Source: Halobacterium rubrum (lineage in GTDB: Archaea > Halobacteriota > Halobacteria > Halobacteriales > Halobacteriaceae). Taken from it: a stretch of DNA of 64,000 nt. A model generated the notes under the pieces. The model was not told where the DNA came from. It did not search any database and worked only from the letters and a program-made list of their open reading frames with translations. The DNA lies in contig NZ_JAJQQZ010000003.1 of NCBI RefSeq assembly GCF_021729015.1, positions 1-64,000 on the forward strand. The letters are read 5' to 3'. This document shows positions 110 through 54,150 of this stretch, piece by piece (positions within the stretch are counted from its first letter, which is position 1; every line of letters starts with the position of its first letter). Position numbers and translations under genes: made by a program.

Positions 110-856
110 ATGGCCAGTGTGAACCTCCGCACGGACCTCGACCTCGACGACCCCACACTCGTCGAAGGCCTCCCCGGCGTCGGCCTCGTCGGCAAGATCG
201 CCACCGACCACATCGTCGAGACCTACGACATGGACCTCGTCGCCAGCATCGACTGCGACGGCATCCCGAGCGTCGCCGTCTACGACGACGACTCCCGCGA
301 CGTCGTCCCGCCCGTCCGCATCCACGCCGACGAATCACGGGACCTCCTCGCGCTCCAGAGCGACGTCCCCGTCGCCCGCAGCGGCTCCAGCGACTTCGCC
401 GACTGCGTCACCACCTGGCTGGACTCCCACGACGTCACCCCACTGTACCTCTCCGGGCTCCCCGACGAGAACCACGAACCCGGGGACCTCCCCGCAGTCT
501 TCGGCATCGGCTCCGGAGACGGCACCGACCGCCTCGCCGACCACGACATCGACACCCCACCGGAACGCGGCGTCGTCGGCGGCCCCACCGGCGCCCTCGT
601 CAACAGCGCCGCCGAAGCCGACCTCGACGCCATCGCCCTCGTCGTCGAATCCGACCCCCAGTTCCCCGACCCAGCCGCCGCCCGCCGCCTCATCGACTCC
701 GCCATCGCCCCGGTCACCGGCATCGACGTCCCGACAGACGATCTCGTCGAACGCGCCGAGGAGATCCGCGACCAGAAAGAGAAACTCGCCCAGCGCATGC
801 AGGAAGCCAGCGAAGAGGAATCGACGCAAGCGAAACCGATGCGGATGTTCCAATAG
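110..856 (+). CDS. PAC2-family proteasome-assembly-chaperone-like protein (paralog 1)
   Basis: The 248-residue protein carries the PAC2 signature near its N-terminus, with LVEGLPGVGLVGKIATDHIV about 15 residues from the start. Eukaryotic relatives assemble the 20S proteasome; the archaeal members are soluble and their role is not settled. The C-terminus is a charged helical tail (ERAEEIRDQKEKLAQRM). I chose the ATG at 110 rather than the upstream GTG at 92 because a TTTATG element at 81-86 lies about 26 bases before it, the leaderless spacing. A second PAC2 paralog occurs in this window at 45478-46230, and a proteasomal ATPase at 11657-12877. Confidence 0.85.
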   Translation: MASVNLRTDLDLDDPTLVEGLPGVGLVGKIATDHIVETYDMDLVASIDCDGIPSVAVYDDDSRDVVPPVRIHADESRDLLALQSDVPVARSGSSDFADCVTTWLDSHDVTPLYLSGLPDENHEPGDLPAVFGIGSGDGTDRLADHDIDTPPERGVVGGPTGALVNSAAEADLDAIALVVESDPQFPDPAAARRLIDSAIAPVTGIDVPTDDLVERAEEIRDQKEKLAQRMQEASEEESTQAKPMRMFQ

Positions 857-860
857 TACC

Positions 861-927
861 TTTTTGCTGCGGGGGATTGCCTTGCTCGCGCCTGCGGCGC
901 TCGCTGTGGGAATCCCCCTTGCAAAAA
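861..927. repeat. Long inverted repeat, likely terminator of the PAC2 gene
   Basis: TTTTTGC at 861-867 and GGGGGATT at 871-878 pair with AATCCCCC at 911-918 and GCAAAAA at 921-927, leaving a small internal loop. An inner hairpin GCGCC-TGC-GGCGC sits at 888-900. It begins five bases after the stop codon and contains T and A runs, so it could terminate transcription on either strand. Its low-complexity interior resembles short intergenic palindromes scattered through haloarchaeal genomes. Confidence 0.6.
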
Positions 928-971
928 GCTACGCTAAAAACTCCCCGCGCTCACTTCGTTCGCGCGGTGAA

Positions 972-28440: not shown

Positions 28441-28513
28441 AGCCCTGTGGTGTAGTGGCCAATCATATGGGCCTTTGGAGCCCATGACGGCAGTTCGAAT
28501 CTGCCCAGGGCTA
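28441..28513 (+). tRNA. tRNA-Gln (anticodon TTG)
   Basis: The cloverleaf folds fully. AGCCCTG at 28441-28447 pairs with CAGGGCT at 28506-28512, followed by the discriminator A. The anticodon stem TGGGC/GCCCA encloses the loop CTTTGGA, with anticodon TTG at 28475-28477. The T arm carries GTTCGAATC. The 3' CCA is not encoded. A short T run (TTTT, 28515-28518) follows, consistent with termination. No intron is present. Confidence 0.95.
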
Positions 28514-49512: not shown

Positions 49513-51951
49513 TCAGGTCCCCGGCTGCGCGTCCGTCAGCGCCGACTGGTTCACCTGGTAGACGACGACCGTCGGCGTCGCGTACGGCGTGCTGATGCCG
49601 GGCTCGTCGCCCATTCGCGCCACGTCGTAGCGCTCGCGCTCGACGGGACCGACCCAGACGTACTCGACGTCGTGCTTGCGGAGCAACGCGGCCCGCGACG
49701 CCGCGTCGGTCGTCTCGTAGACGATGCCGACGTCGCTGACGCGCTGGTCCCACGCCGACTGGCTGTGGTAGTTCGCCTCGTGTACCCAGCCGGCGACCGT
49801 CGGAATCCCGGTCAGACTCGACGCCGGGTTCTGCCACGAGTACGGCGTCGTCCCGGGCGCGGAGACGATGTGTGGCTGTCCGGGTTTCTCGTGCAGCCAC
49901 TCGATGGCCGCTGCCTCGCCCGGCCGCTCCTCGTGGACGTACTCGAAGGCGTCGATGGTGGCCTCGCCGTCGGCGCTCCCGAAGTGCGCGGACAGCGCCA
50001 GCCCGCCGTAGATGGACGTCGAGACGACGAGCCCGACGACCAGCAGGGTGCCGCCGACCGACCGGGCCCGGGACGCCGACGGGACGCGCGACGCCAGCGC
50101 CGCCAGCGCGACGCCGGCGGGAATCGCCCAGAGCGCCCAGACCTGCGCGTACACCTTGAATATCGTGTTGAAGCGCTCGAAGGACGCCGCGTCGGCGAGG
50201 TAGACGTACTCCACGAGCACCACGAGCCCGGCGCCCGCGACCACCAGCACGCCCTCGAAGCCGACGCCGGCGCGCCGCCGGAGCGCCCACGCGCCGGCGA
50301 GCAGCGGTCCCGCGAGTAGCACCGCAACGACGCCCAACCGGACGCCGGCGACGACGGGGTCCACAGCGTACGCGAGGCCCACCAGTCCCAGCGCCGCGAG
50401 CCCGGCAGCCAGCCAGCCGGCGGCGCTGTCGGCGACCCGCGAGACGAGGTACGCCGCGAACGCCACGAGGAACAGCCCGTGGACGAACAGGAACGCCCCC
50501 AGCAGCGACGGCTCCGGGAACGCGGCCGGGTGCTGGTTGCTCGCGCCCGAGAGCAGGACGTTCCGCACGAACGGCCACGCGACCACGAGCGCGAGCGCGG
50601 CGACGACCGCCGCTGCGACGACCGCCAGCAGCACTCGCTGGACTTCCCGGCCGACCGTCGAGCCACGGTCTGCCCACGCCCGGGCGCGAGCGGGTAGCAG
50701 CGTCCCGGGTGCGGCGTCGGCGAGCGCGACGGACAGCGCCGCCACGCCGAGGACCGCCGGGAAGCTCCACGTGTTCACCGCGAGAATCGCCGCGGCGGCC
50801 ACCGGGAAGCCGCCGAACAGCAACGCCAGCCGCCTGCCTCGTTGCTCGGGCGGCGTCCGGTAGTACGCCAGCCCGACCGCCACCGCGAGGAACAGCACGG
50901 GGACGCTCATCATGTGTGCGTGCAGGTCGCCGTTCAGGTACGCGAACAGCGGGAACTCGTTGATGCCGGTCTCCACGAACCGGCTGCCGTGCCAGGCGTC
51001 GAACTCGCTCGGTGTGATGGCGGGCTGTCGGTTCGAACTGATGCCCGCGGCCGCCACCGCGTCCCGGACGACGTCGACGCGCGCGGCGAGCAGCCGCACC
51101 GGCGTCCCGAGATTGCTCGCGAACCCGTAGACGAACGCCGCCAGCACGCCCGCTCGCACCCGCCGCGACCGCGTCACCGCGAGCGCCGCGCCCGCGGCCG
51201 GGAGCGCCAGCAACACCCAGTCGACGCCCGTCGCCAGCAGCATCGCCACGAACACGACGCCTGCGGCGCCGAGTGCGGTCGAGGCCCTGATTCGACCGGC
51301 AACCCGGTCGTCGTCCCCGGTGGCTGAACCGTCACCACCGTCGTCGCTGCCGAGTGCTGCGGCGAGCGTGCTGGCGAGGCCGTAGGCGGCCGTGACAGCC
51401 ATCGCGTAGAAGCCCGCCAGCGCCGGGCTGTACGCGAGCCGCCCCTCGGTCGCCGTGAGGTGGGCGCCGATGGCCGTCATCAGGTGCCCGCCGTAGTAGT
51501 AGACGACGCGCTCGCCCGCGAACCACATGTCCTGTGGCGGTAGTCGACTCCCCCGCAGCAGGCTCTGGACCAGCCCCATGTCGAGGAACTTCTCGCCGCC
51601 GTAGGGGTGGACGCCGTCGGCCGCCACCCGAATCGTAATCAGGAACGCGAACGCGACTGTGAACACCGCCACGACCTCCGCGAACGCCCGCCGGGGAACG
51701 CCCACGCCGCCACGCGCGAGCCACGCCGACGCTGCCAGAAACGCCACGAACACGACGGCGACGGCGACCGGCCCGAACGCGACCTGGCCGACCCAGAGCG
51801 TCACCAGCGTCACCACCACCAGCGACAGCGGCATCGCCACCGACGCTCCCCGGTCGGGCGCGTCCGGCAGCAGGCGCGCCGTCAGCGGCAGTCCCGCCAC
51901 CAGCAACACCTGGAAGAACAGCCACCACCGGACGACCACGCCGTACTCCAT
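49513..51951 (-). CDS. DUF2298 (YYY) large membrane protein
   Basis: The 812-residue integral membrane protein carries the tyrosine triplet that names the family, GERVVYYYGGHLMTAIGAHL at about residues 153-172, within roughly 14 hydrophobic helices. It resembles GT-C-type glycosyltransferases, so a role in lipid-linked sugar transfer is plausible. The start at 51951 is taken because CGTTTGG (reverse strand, about 51978) lies 27-30 bases upstream and the extra seven residues of the longer ORF are not membrane-like. It is divergent from the flippase gene. Confidence 0.8.
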   Translation of the reverse strand: MEYGVVVRWWLFFQVLLVAGLPLTARLLPDAPDRGASVAMPLSLVVVTLVTLWVGQVAFGPVAVAVVFVAFLAASAWLARGGVGVPRRAFAEVVAVFTVAFAFLITIRVAADGVHPYGGEKFLDMGLVQSLLRGSRLPPQDMWFAGERVVYYYGGHLMTAIGAHLTATEGRLAYSPALAGFYAMAVTAAYGLASTLAAALGSDDGGDGSATGDDDRVAGRIRASTALGAAGVVFVAMLLATGVDWVLLALPAAGAALAVTRSRRVRAGVLAAFVYGFASNLGTPVRLLAARVDVVRDAVAAAGISSNRQPAITPSEFDAWHGSRFVETGINEFPLFAYLNGDLHAHMMSVPVLFLAVAVGLAYYRTPPEQRGRRLALLFGGFPVAAAAILAVNTWSFPAVLGVAALSVALADAAPGTLLPARARAWADRGSTVGREVQRVLLAVVAAAVVAALALVVAWPFVRNVLLSGASNQHPAAFPEPSLLGAFLFVHGLFLVAFAAYLVSRVADSAAGWLAAGLAALGLVGLAYAVDPVVAGVRLGVVAVLLAGPLLAGAWALRRRAGVGFEGVLVVAGAGLVVLVEYVYLADAASFERFNTIFKVYAQVWALWAIPAGVALAALASRVPSASRARSVGGTLLVVGLVVSTSIYGGLALSAHFGSADGEATIDAFEYVHEERPGEAAAIEWLHEKPGQPHIVSAPGTTPYSWQNPASSLTGIPTVAGWVHEANYHSQSAWDQRVSDVGIVYETTDAASRAALLRKHDVEYVWVGPVERERYDVARMGDEPGISTPYATPTVVVYQVNQSALTDAQPGT

Positions 51952-52093
51952 TGCCGGAGTCGTGGGCAGCACTCGCCAAACGCTTTCGGGTTCCGTCCGA
52001 GCGTCCCGCCCGCTCAGCTACCCCTCGTCGGTTGCCGGGATTCTGCGGACCGAATGGCTTAATCGGCGAAGCGGACTCCCGGAAGACAGACCG

Positions 52094-53653
52094 ATGCCGG
52101 ACAGCGCCGACGGCCACGAGGCGACGGGAGCAAGGGAAGCGGTACCCGACGAAGAGCGCGACGCGCTGTTGACTATCGCCCACGGCGCTGTCGTGACGTC
52201 TGGCGGCGTCTCCGCCCAGCGCGCGCTCGTCGCGGCGGTGGAGTTCGTGCTCGCGCGCGGCCTCGGCCCCGTCGCGTACGGCGTCTACGCGCTCGCGTGG
52301 CGGGTCGCACAGCTGCTGTCCCGGCTCGTTACCTTCGGTAGCGTCCCCACCCTCCAGCGGTACCTGTCCGCCGACGACGACGCCGAACGCCGCTCCCGCG
52401 TGACCGGGCTCGCCTACCTCACCACCGCCGGCGTCGGGCTCCTCATCACGTTCGGCGTCTGGCTGGCCGCGCCGTGGCTCGACGCCACCACCGTCGACCA
52501 CCCGATGTTCCCGGCAGCGATGCGGTTGCTCGGCGCGTTCGTCCTGCTCGTCGGCCTCGTGATGGTGTACGCCGCCACCTTCCGCGCCGACGGCTCCGCT
52601 CGCGGCGAAGTGCTGTTCAACAAGCTCCTCCGGCCCGCCGTCCGGCTCGTCGGCGCGCTCGCGGCGCTCGCGCTCGGGTACTCTGTGGTCGGCGTCGCCG
52701 GCGCGTACGTCGCCAGCATGCTCGTCCTCGTCGTCCTCGGCTTCCCCATCACGGCTCGCATCACCGGTGTCACGCCCACGCTGCGAGGCTTGCGTCAGGA
52801 CGCCCGCCAGTTCTACGACCACGCGGCCCCGGTCGCGATGAGCAGCTTCGGGAAGATCTTCCAGAACCGCGCGGACATCCTCCTCGTCGGCGCGCTCCTC
52901 ACGGCCGTCGCGGCCGGGGTCTACAACGTCGTGCTCGTGCTCATCTCCGTCGCGTGGATTCCGCTGATGTCGTTCAATCAGCTCCTCCCGCCCGTCGCCT
53001 CGCGGCTCCACGCCAGCGGCGACGTCGAGACCCTGAACGCCGTCTACTCGTCGGTGACGCGACTCATCGTCACCACCGTCGTCCCGATTCTCGCCGTCCA
53101 GCTCGTCTTCGGCCGCGAACTTCTCGCGCTGTTCGGCCCGACCTACACGCGGGGGTACGTCCCGCTCGTCCTCTACCTCGCGGGCGTGTTCGTCGGCAGC
53201 GCCGTCGGCGCGACCGGCTGGCTGCTCATGATGACCGACCACCAGTACGCCCGCATGGCGCTGGACTGGCTGCTCGCCGTGCTGAACGTCGCACTCACGT
53301 ACGTCTTCGTCCTCGAGTTCGGGCTCGCGGGCGCGGCGCTCGGCACCTCGCTGGCCATCGCCATCCAGAACGGACTCCAGGTGCTCCTCCTCCGGCGCTT
53401 CGAGGGCCTCTGGCCGTTCGACGCCACCTTCCTCCGCCCGCTCGCCGCCGGCGCCGCCATGACCGCCGCGATGTTCGGCGTCCGATCGCTGCTCGCCGAC
53501 GGCCCACTGGCAATCGCTGCCGGCGCCGCTGTCGGCCTCCCCACCTACCTCGTGGCGCTCCACGTACTCGGCGTCGACCCCCGCGACCGCATCGTCGTCC
53601 GCGAACTCTCCGCGCGCTACCGCGACGACGTCGCCGACGCCGTCCCGCTCTGA
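52094..53653 (+). CDS. Polysaccharide/lipid flippase (MOP superfamily)
   Basis: The 519-residue protein has about 12-14 membrane helices with the Wzx/MurJ-like sequence LARGLGPVAYGVYALAWRVAQLLSRLVTFGSVPTLQRYLS near the N-terminus. It probably flips lipid-linked sugars or polysaccharide units for S-layer glycosylation or exopolysaccharide. It is divergent from the DUF2298 membrane protein, hinting at a glycan pathway. GGCTTAATC at about 52057-52064 gives a short leader before the ATG. An Asp/Ala-rich cytoplasmic head precedes the first helix. Confidence 0.84.
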   Translation: MPDSADGHEATGAREAVPDEERDALLTIAHGAVVTSGGVSAQRALVAAVEFVLARGLGPVAYGVYALAWRVAQLLSRLVTFGSVPTLQRYLSADDDAERRSRVTGLAYLTTAGVGLLITFGVWLAAPWLDATTVDHPMFPAAMRLLGAFVLLVGLVMVYAATFRADGSARGEVLFNKLLRPAVRLVGALAALALGYSVVGVAGAYVASMLVLVVLGFPITARITGVTPTLRGLRQDARQFYDHAAPVAMSSFGKIFQNRADILLVGALLTAVAAGVYNVVLVLISVAWIPLMSFNQLLPPVASRLHASGDVETLNAVYSSVTRLIVTTVVPILAVQLVFGRELLALFGPTYTRGYVPLVLYLAGVFVGSAVGATGWLLMMTDHQYARMALDWLLAVLNVALTYVFVLEFGLAGAALGTSLAIAIQNGLQVLLLRRFEGLWPFDATFLRPLAAGAAMTAAMFGVRSLLADGPLAIAAGAAVGLPTYLVALHVLGVDPRDRIVVRELSARYRDDVADAVPL

Positions 53654-53719
53654 GCGCGCGGACTACCCGGACGGCGAAACCCACACAGCCGAGACTGCGT
53701 GGTCGAACGTCCGAAGGAG

Positions 53720-53797
53720 AGTAGCGGGAGGGAGATTTGAACCGGGGCCAGACGGTTGCTCACTTCGTTCGTGCTGCGACTGGCTGGGTTCAAATCT
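53720..53797. repeat. Partial duplicate of tRNA-Met 3' end with hairpin (copy A)
   Basis: Bases 53720-53742 match the tRNA-Met 3' end (54011-54033) at 22 of 23 positions. AGATTTGAACC at 53733-53743 pairs with GGTTCAAATCT at 53787-53797, and inner GCCAG pairs with CTGGC (53747-53751 with 53780-53784). So the T-arm-derived motif forms the ends of a hairpin element of about 65 bases. Confidence 0.7.
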
Positions 53798-53818
53798 ACG
53801 CCCGGACTACACGGATGG

Positions 53819-53852
53819 AACCAACTGCGCAGACGAGACTGCGCAGTTGGTT
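53819..53852. repeat. Perfect 14-bp inverted repeat between tRNA copies
   Basis: AACCAACTGCGCAG at 53819-53832 and CTGCGCAGTTGGTT at 53839-53852 are exact reverse complements with a six-base loop. It lies between the two tRNA 3'-end copies. It could terminate the flippase transcript, or be a remnant of an inserted element. Confidence 0.7.
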
Positions 53853-53862
53853 TCGCAGGAGA

Positions 53863-53941
53863 AGTAGCGGGAGGTAGATTTGAACCGCCCGTCAGACGAA
53901 CCTCGCTGCGCTCGGTTGCGACTGACGTGGTTCAAATCTAC
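53863..53941. repeat. Partial duplicate of tRNA-Met 3' end with hairpin (copy B)
   Basis: Bases 53863-53885 are identical over 23 bases to the tRNA-Met 3' end at 54011-54033. GTAGATTTGAACC at 53874-53886 pairs with GGTTCAAATCTAC at 53929-53941, with GTCAG/CTGAC inside. It repeats copy A's layout 143 bases on and is followed 148 bases later by the tRNA itself. Another hairpin follows (GCCTCGC-ACGGAG-GCGAGGC at 53970-53989, framed by GGAACTC/GAGTTCC at 53956-54005). No gene is visible in 53654-54012. Confidence 0.7.
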
Positions 53942-54012
53942 TCCGCCACATCGCAGGAACTCTCGGGACGCCTCGCACGGAGGCGAGGCTCAGGAGTCGA
54001 GTTCCAGAGGAG

Positions 54013-54087
54013 TAGCGGGAGGTAGATTTGAACTACCGATCTCCGGGTTATGAGCCCGGCGGAATCTCCTGGCTATCCCATCCCGCT
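54013..54087 (-). tRNA. Initiator tRNA-Met (anticodon CAT)
   Basis: The reverse-strand cloverleaf starts AGCGGGA (54087-54081) and pairs with TCCCGCT (54020-54014), with discriminator A at 54013. The anticodon loop CTCATAA (reverse of 54048-54054) holds CAT at 54052-54050. The stem CCGGG/CCCGG has the consecutive G:C pairs typical of initiators, and A1:U72 is an archaeal initiator feature. The 3' CCA is not encoded. No intron is present. Confidence 0.93.
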
Positions 54088-54150
54088 GATTCCTCGTAAC
54101 CCCGTTTTACAGTTAAGGGTTCTGATTCCGTCGCCGTATGGGAGATATCC

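Follow-up and report, generated by a model that had tools for sequence, protein, structure and literature searches.

The initiator tRNA-Met locus

The sequence analysed here, called the window below, is a stretch of 64,000 nt from Halobacterium rubrum. It contains, on the minus strand, an initiator tRNA-Met gene whose 3' end, designated X, recurs twice downstream. The acceptor of this tRNA begins AGCGGGA with an A1-U72 pair, as is typical of archaeal initiators. Each recurrence of X belongs to a module that also contains an inverted copy of the tRNA end, designated X', and the modules are separated by short trailers. In tRNA orientation the features are as follows.

54012..54087, minus strand: initiator tRNA-Met(CAT) gene, 3' end = segment X (ARAGORN; RF00005, 60.5 bits, Rfam span 54013-54087)
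53942..54011, minus strand: trailer A, a hairpin GGAACTCGACTC..GAGAGTTCC directly 3' of the tRNA, then an inverted acceptor-end remnant (GTGGCGGAG) (sequence and fold)
53874..53941, minus strand: T-arm hairpin of module 1, consisting of X' (GTAGATTTGAACC), core AGTCGCAACCGAGCGCAGCGAGGTTCGTCT and the start of X (model R1, 72.0 bits, E 1e-19)
53863..53885, minus strand: direct copy 1 of the tRNA-Met 3' end, 23/23, its T-loop half forming the 3' arm of the module 1 hairpin (repeat search)
53800..53862, minus strand: trailer B, with a perfect 14-bp hairpin (53819-53832 / 53839-53852) (inverted-repeat search)
53731..53799, minus strand: T-arm hairpin of module 2, with the commonest core, AGTCGCAGC-ACGAACGAAGTGAGCA-ACCGTCT (model R1, 84.7 bits, E 1e-23)
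53720..53742, minus strand: direct copy 2 of the tRNA-Met 3' end, 22/23 (repeat search)
53655..53719, minus strand: terminal trailer C, related to trailer B but diverged (73% over 45 nt) (direct-repeat search, ORF list)

Two further occurrences of the 23-mer AGTAGCGGGAGGTAGATTTGAAC (plus strand, 54011-54033) are at 53863-53885 (23/23) and 53720-53742 (22/23), with start-to-start spacings of 148 and 143. These two copies, one identical and one with a single mismatch, had been noticed in a sequence-only reading of the same DNA, and this observation was confirmed. An inverted T-arm lies 42-43 nt before each 23-base copy in tRNA orientation and produces hairpins of 68 and 69 nt, within the 65-70 bases that the same reading had given for hairpins built from inverted T-arm repeats. 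Beyond the reach of that reading were three further features: the spacers are themselves hairpins, the core is conserved, and modules stand behind about half of the tRNA genes, each with the sequence of its own tRNA. Trailer C terminates at the stop codon of a convergent gene (51659-53653). Folding of the 438-base region gives a z-score of -7.4 against shuffles, and a scan of 53600-54150 with Rfam 15 returned no match at gathering score except the tRNA itself.

The second tRNA in the window, tRNA-Gln(TTG) at 28441-28513 (plus strand), has no module or end copy within 600 bases downstream. Weak matches to model R1 (18 and 14 bits), near chance level, are found at 856-964 (minus strand) around an intergenic GA hairpin that has no tRNA.

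Distribution and linkage to tRNA genes

A first pattern, AGATTTGAACN{28,58}GTTCAAATCT, was searched exactly across 40 related genomes together with a reversed control; it has matches in 8 of the 40 genomes and none in the control. All of these matches lie 3' of a same-strand tRNA (Met, Ser or Arg) and have the core AG[AT]CGCAGC..ACCGTCT in common. A covariance model of the hairpin, R1, was built from nine copies. The search for hairpins in the genome and its relatives, which the sequence-only reading had proposed, brought out a large family with this model: 103 of 116 Halobacteriales genomes contain the hairpin, in 1-33 copies each. Of 120 genomes of the phylum Halobacteriota, 19 are Halobacteriales, of which 18 are R1-positive; the 101 genomes from outside that order have no match. 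A 24-base core pattern was also run against 84,980 prokaryotic species, each represented by a single genome; it occurs at 65 loci, all of them haloarchaeal, and has no match in a viral contig collection.

The modules keep a fixed orientation to a tRNA gene. Sixty of the 65 core-pattern loci are within about 350 bases 3' of a same-strand tRNA, the five exceptions having a contig end, an inserted element in between, or no tRNA in the stretch retrieved (L061, L100), and 27 of the 30 best R1 loci are likewise behind a same-strand tRNA. Within the H. rubrum genome itself (G000, 3.07 Mb) at least one module follows 22 of the 43 tRNA genes, and no upstream end copies exist among the 30 tRNAs of this genome that were examined. 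The sequence-only reading had counted the occurrence of the units away from tRNA-Met as evidence against its own account. Such units do exist, at nearly every tRNA type, but they are still bound to tRNA 3' ends and carry the sequence of that tRNA.

Genomes have between 0 and 33 copies, which makes the modules dispensable. The near-complete genomes G078 (same order) and G006 (same genus) have 0 or 1-2 modules where their relatives have 10-30, a contrast useful for a search for partner genes. No description of tRNA-linked hairpins in haloarchaea, or of the GA-hairpin sequence, was found in the open-access literature, subscription literature being outside the search. Within the literature searched, the haloarchaeal tRNA-end hairpin modules are an undescribed, class-wide family.

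Module anatomy and the tRNA-specific arms

The order within a module is X, loop, X', core, X. X begins at T54 in the T-loop and runs through the discriminator base into a few trailer bases. In X' the T-loop and T-stem are nearly complete and the acceptor end is recognisable, and the loop between X and X' is mostly a further hairpin.

The arms match the tRNA that they follow and not tRNAs in general. The arm-match score is 9.61, compared with 8.09 +/- 0.11 when tRNAs are permuted among modules, and 2.46 of the four T-stem bases match the module's own tRNA, compared with 1.56 +/- 0.09 after permutation. In such permutations the arms follow each tRNA's own sequence with z = 10-14, and the acceptor end with z = 4.9. 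Unusual T-loops are mirrored in the arms of the adjacent modules, as for Val-CAC, where GGTTCAACTCCGC is found with GCGGAGTTGAACC. Beyond this tracking of the tRNA, joint change of both arms is rare (15 cases, 5 expected). At position 52 the copy has G also in the 18 modules whose parent tRNA has A there, and the copied segment therefore starts at T54.

A second type of module, with the core GACC[CT]TCGCGAAC..GTTCGCTCAGTCCC, is inserted at the border of T-stem and acceptor and is flanked by inverted and direct tRNA-end copies. It was found at L203 (H. rubrum's own tRNA-Arg-CCT), inside the L161 and L164 copies, and in L046 near its tRNA-Arg. Variants of the T-loop copy, GGTTCACAATC (L051, L071, L079, L086, L088, L102) and GGTGAGNATC-like (L048, L085, L091, L181), recur at different tRNAs in different genera, and may reflect shared sublineages or convergence.

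Constraint on one folded strand

Covariation was assessed on an alignment of 110 hairpin copies. Of all cells, 92.1% pair, and two-sided changes are present in 18 of the 25 pairs. The covariation score is 0.331, against 0.109 for shuffled alignments and at most 0.051 for slid structures; the core has evolved by compensatory change. Mismatches are conserved as well: a T.T pair in 82% of the 110 copies, a GCAG/ACC internal loop in 76-100%, and the tandem G-A pairs of the terminal hairpin in 98-100%, with the adjoining pairs varying freely.

The trailers played no part in module detection. Of 153 trailers, 61 have the tandem-GA hairpin on the tRNA strand and 2 have it on the opposite one. The tRNA sense strand has the better fold in 113 trailers versus 39 (p = 3e-8), a strand bias that stems partly from common descent. 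G.U pairs outnumber A.C pairs by 35 to 18, a modest excess only and compatible with RNA or single-stranded DNA. Strand bias and conserved mismatches together establish that the constraint acts on one folded strand, whether RNA or single-stranded DNA.

Covariation in a palindrome can also come from template-switch correction without selection, which counts against reading the modules as trailer RNA. Such correction is central to an explanation that we consider unlikely, in which the modules are remnants of small non-autonomous mobile elements, similar to MITEs or to the SMRs of Haloquadratum. Such elements would at one time have integrated 3' of tRNAs, duplicating the tRNA end, and would now evolve mostly neutrally, their palindromes being kept perfect by template switching. 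The presence of the same core at many tRNAs, and of multiple core subtypes common to different tRNAs, speaks for this explanation, and the SMR-A elements, which are about 110 bp long, contain inverted repeats and target palindromes, provide a precedent (PMC3119063). However, conserved mismatches would be erased by template-switch correction, the core and the trailers are conserved across the genus although the flanking intergenic DNA cannot be aligned, and the fixed orientation to the tRNA and the lack of core-pattern copies in the viral contig collection count against it too. No transposon with the core was met incidentally. The SMR and PATE elements of Haloquadratum walsbyi do resemble the modules in being short (about 110 bp), non-coding, hairpin-forming haloarchaeal repeats that undergo repeat-mediated deletion between short direct repeats; they differ in having no link to tRNAs, in targeting other mobile elements, in lacking arms copied from the target, and in that copies of one type are commonly >95% identical (PMC3119063).

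Inheritance and turnover

Across 13 species of the genus the initiator tRNA-Met locus has 0, 1 or 2 modules. Modules are gained or lost as whole units, with trailers A and B swapped to match: trailer A is kept behind the tRNA in G006, with related trailers in G002, G003, G008, G009 and G012, and trailer B sits directly 3' of the tRNA in G001 and G010. Orthologous modules at the same tRNA show compensatory changes across the genus at Gly-TCC, Glu-TTC, Ala-GGC, Leu-TAG and Ser-CGA, an example being GCGAG/CTCGC to GTGAG/CTCAC in the Gly-TCC module. In some species another core subtype has been substituted at the same tRNA. Directly behind the initiator tRNA-Met in L112 (G007), the trailer is broken by an ORF that resembles, by eye, a TnpB of the IS200/IS605 type.

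Core identity between modules of the same genome at different tRNAs is 0.520, compared with 0.538 +/- 0.009 for permuted labels, and this permutation gave no sign of recent dispersal to new tRNAs within a genome. As same-genome cores are not more alike, and as 21% of same-tRNA module pairs exceed 0.8 identity, the modules are passed on with their tRNA, undergo tandem duplication (identical units in L037 and others) and loss, and no hopping between tRNAs is visible now. The 'small mobile palindromic element' of the sequence-only reading may describe the origin of the modules, but within a genome the modules of different tRNAs resemble each other no more closely than they do those of other genomes, a result that also weighs against mobile remnants as set out above. 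Behind tRNA-Thr(GGT) in L291 (4283-4621; G105) the modules carry a tRNA-Asp-like end and the end of a further tRNA rather than that of Thr, so rare relocation or loss of the parent tRNA does occur.

Turnover of this kind can be accommodated by single-stranded recombination cassettes, a reading that we also regard as improbable. Here the folded tRNA-sense strand would be a recombination site, the T-arm of the tRNA its docking site, and the modules gene-less cassettes moved by a tyrosine recombinase. The integron attC site is an imperfect palindrome with paired outer arms, an unpaired spacer, a mismatched inner stem and a variable terminal loop, and its fold is strand-specific. The cassette reading maps the module hairpin onto these parts, with the arms as the core site, and the modules share both this anatomy, including loops of 10-130 nt, and a tandem arrangement behind a fixed docking site with integron cassettes. 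The gain and loss of entire modules at the initiator locus of the 13 related species, with the breakpoints falling in X, tandem identical modules (L037, L001, L008, L079, L182), the G at copy position 52 (18 units), which would mark a junction at G53/T54, and the other tRNAs' 3' ends behind tRNA-Thr in L291 are all in keeping with it. Homologous or repeat-mediated recombination between copies of X accounts for the same turnover, though, and exchange at the T-arm between tRNA types would swap the acceptor end. Unlike integron cassettes the modules have no linked integrase or other recombinase, carry no gene cassettes and have arms copied from a tRNA, and the lack of recent movement between tRNAs is a further point against this reading.

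Integrase elements and attachment sites

Integrative elements that target tRNA genes with SNJ2-type integrases have ends marked by direct copies of the tRNA 3' end (PMC8371274). They resemble the modules in these direct copies and in the tRNAs used, and differ in being of kilobase size with an integrase and without the T-arm hairpin core. Two elements of the tyrosine-integrase class (PF00589) lie between a tRNA end and an older module.

L088, 2010-4122: tyrosine-integrase element between tRNA end and older module
L090, 867-2226: tyrosine-integrase element between tRNA end and older module

The L088 integrase (Halobacterium sp. CBA1126) is 39-41% identical to those of SNJ2 and HRPV-9 and 99% identical to one in G012, of the same genus.

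The sequence-only reading had offered remnant att sites as one of its options, the copies being attR and the hairpin part of the attP region of integrative elements. The modules do contain the classical att signature, a direct copy of a tRNA 3' end, and the integrases of L088 and L090 are only 100-140 bp from the hairpin. In both loci, however, the integrase element's own tRNA-end copy stands between integrase and hairpin, and this separate copy shows that a module was in place before the element integrated into the tRNA, upstream of it. No hairpin turned up beside the SNJ2, HRPV-9 or Humcor1 integrases, and among 30 loci with an SNJ2-type integrase only about 4 have one within 1.5 kb. Furthermore, the modules far outnumber integrative elements and vary little in length. 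The separate tRNA-end copy and the absence near the integrases of the named viruses led us to reject the hairpin as attP or attR of SNJ2-type integrases, and the att-site interpretation as a whole is highly improbable. An origin of the modules by tRNA-primed reverse transcription was also dropped, the haloarchaeal copies looked at being without CCA.

The tyrT/rttR repeats of E. coli

In the repeat cluster of E. coli tyrT the 3' end of tRNA-Tyr is present in tandem copies. The tyrT/tyrV repeats, with the rttR (RtT) RNA (RF00391), are the closest known counterpart of the modules, having the same architecture in an unrelated sequence. At tyrT/tyrV a 19-nt copy of the tRNA's 3' end closes each tandem repeat, with a spacing of 178. 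In E. coli K-12 the tyrV/rttR locus (L303; NC_000913.3, 1287066-1287236) has three 178-bp repeats, each with an inverted tRNA-Tyr-end copy, GGGGAAGGAT, and a tandem-GA hairpin, GAGCGCCAGCGAG, that resembles the haloarchaeal ones. The inverted copy lies 62 bases behind the tRNA end. On its own the repeat unit is predicted to form a fold closed by an X'/X stem, and with the tRNA in front X' is predicted to pair with the tRNA instead. RttR is annotated as a small RNA.

Tandem repeats that carry the adjacent tRNA 3' end and an inverted copy of it are thus common to both systems. They differ in extent: rttR is one locus at one tRNA, whereas haloarchaea have up to 33 modules at nearly all tRNA types, class-wide. 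No sequence-family match between haloarchaeal modules and E. coli rttR was obtained in either direction, and the RF00391 model found nothing in 40 haloarchaeal genomes at E <= 0.01, the E. coli control being positive. Among other tRNA 3' trailers of E. coli, 3'ETS-leuZ functions as a small sponge RNA; to our knowledge it has no tRNA-end copies and its sequence is unrelated to the modules.

A proposed structured trailer RNA

Because of the E. coli parallel, and because RttR is annotated as an RNA, we favour a trailer RNA over a single-stranded DNA recombination site or decaying mobile elements, and of the three options in the sequence-only reading the 'structured RNA' fits best. The initiator tRNA-Met region would then be an array of two modules from a haloarchaeal family of structured tRNA trailers that act as folded RNA, an interpretation that we give a little less than an even chance. 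Points against it are that we know of no protein partner for the modules, that they are dispensable, that joint change of the two arms is rare once tracking of the tRNA is set aside, and that the excess of G.U over A.C pairs is modest.

Under the trailer-RNA interpretation the modules would be made as 3' trailers of tRNA precursors, as rttR is behind tyrTV, and the folded RNA would be the acting form. X' could pair with the tRNA's own X, spoiling the T-arm and acceptor, or alternatively with the downstream copy of X, which would clamp X' into the hairpin. Because these two pairings are mutually exclusive, we infer a switch: the module may serve as a folding switch or a protected trailer, with effects on how stable the precursor is and how its 3' end matures, or may release a small RNA. 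The length of an array would grow and shrink by recombination between copies of X.

Significance

tRNA 3' ends are hot spots of integration, and the T-arm is a handle for the enzymes of 3' maturation. As the modules resemble att duplications but are not, they complicate the annotation of att sites in haloarchaea. The breadth of the haloarchaeal family and its tRNA-specific inverted arms exceed the E. coli precedent by far, and the E. coli tyrT/rttR repeats, old and poorly understood, gain a wider context from the recurrence of the X-X'-X layout in another domain. The family also supplies hundreds of natural variants for functional tests. It is conceivable, although we lean against it, that archaea possess class-wide, tRNA-specific modules in which a conserved core, between inverted and direct copies of the tRNA's own 3' end, is read as a folded single strand, and of which E. 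coli tyrT/rttR would be the lone bacterial case; these would be either a folding switch of precursor tRNAs, present at roughly every second tRNA gene, or integron-like cassettes that carry no genes and dock at T-arms.
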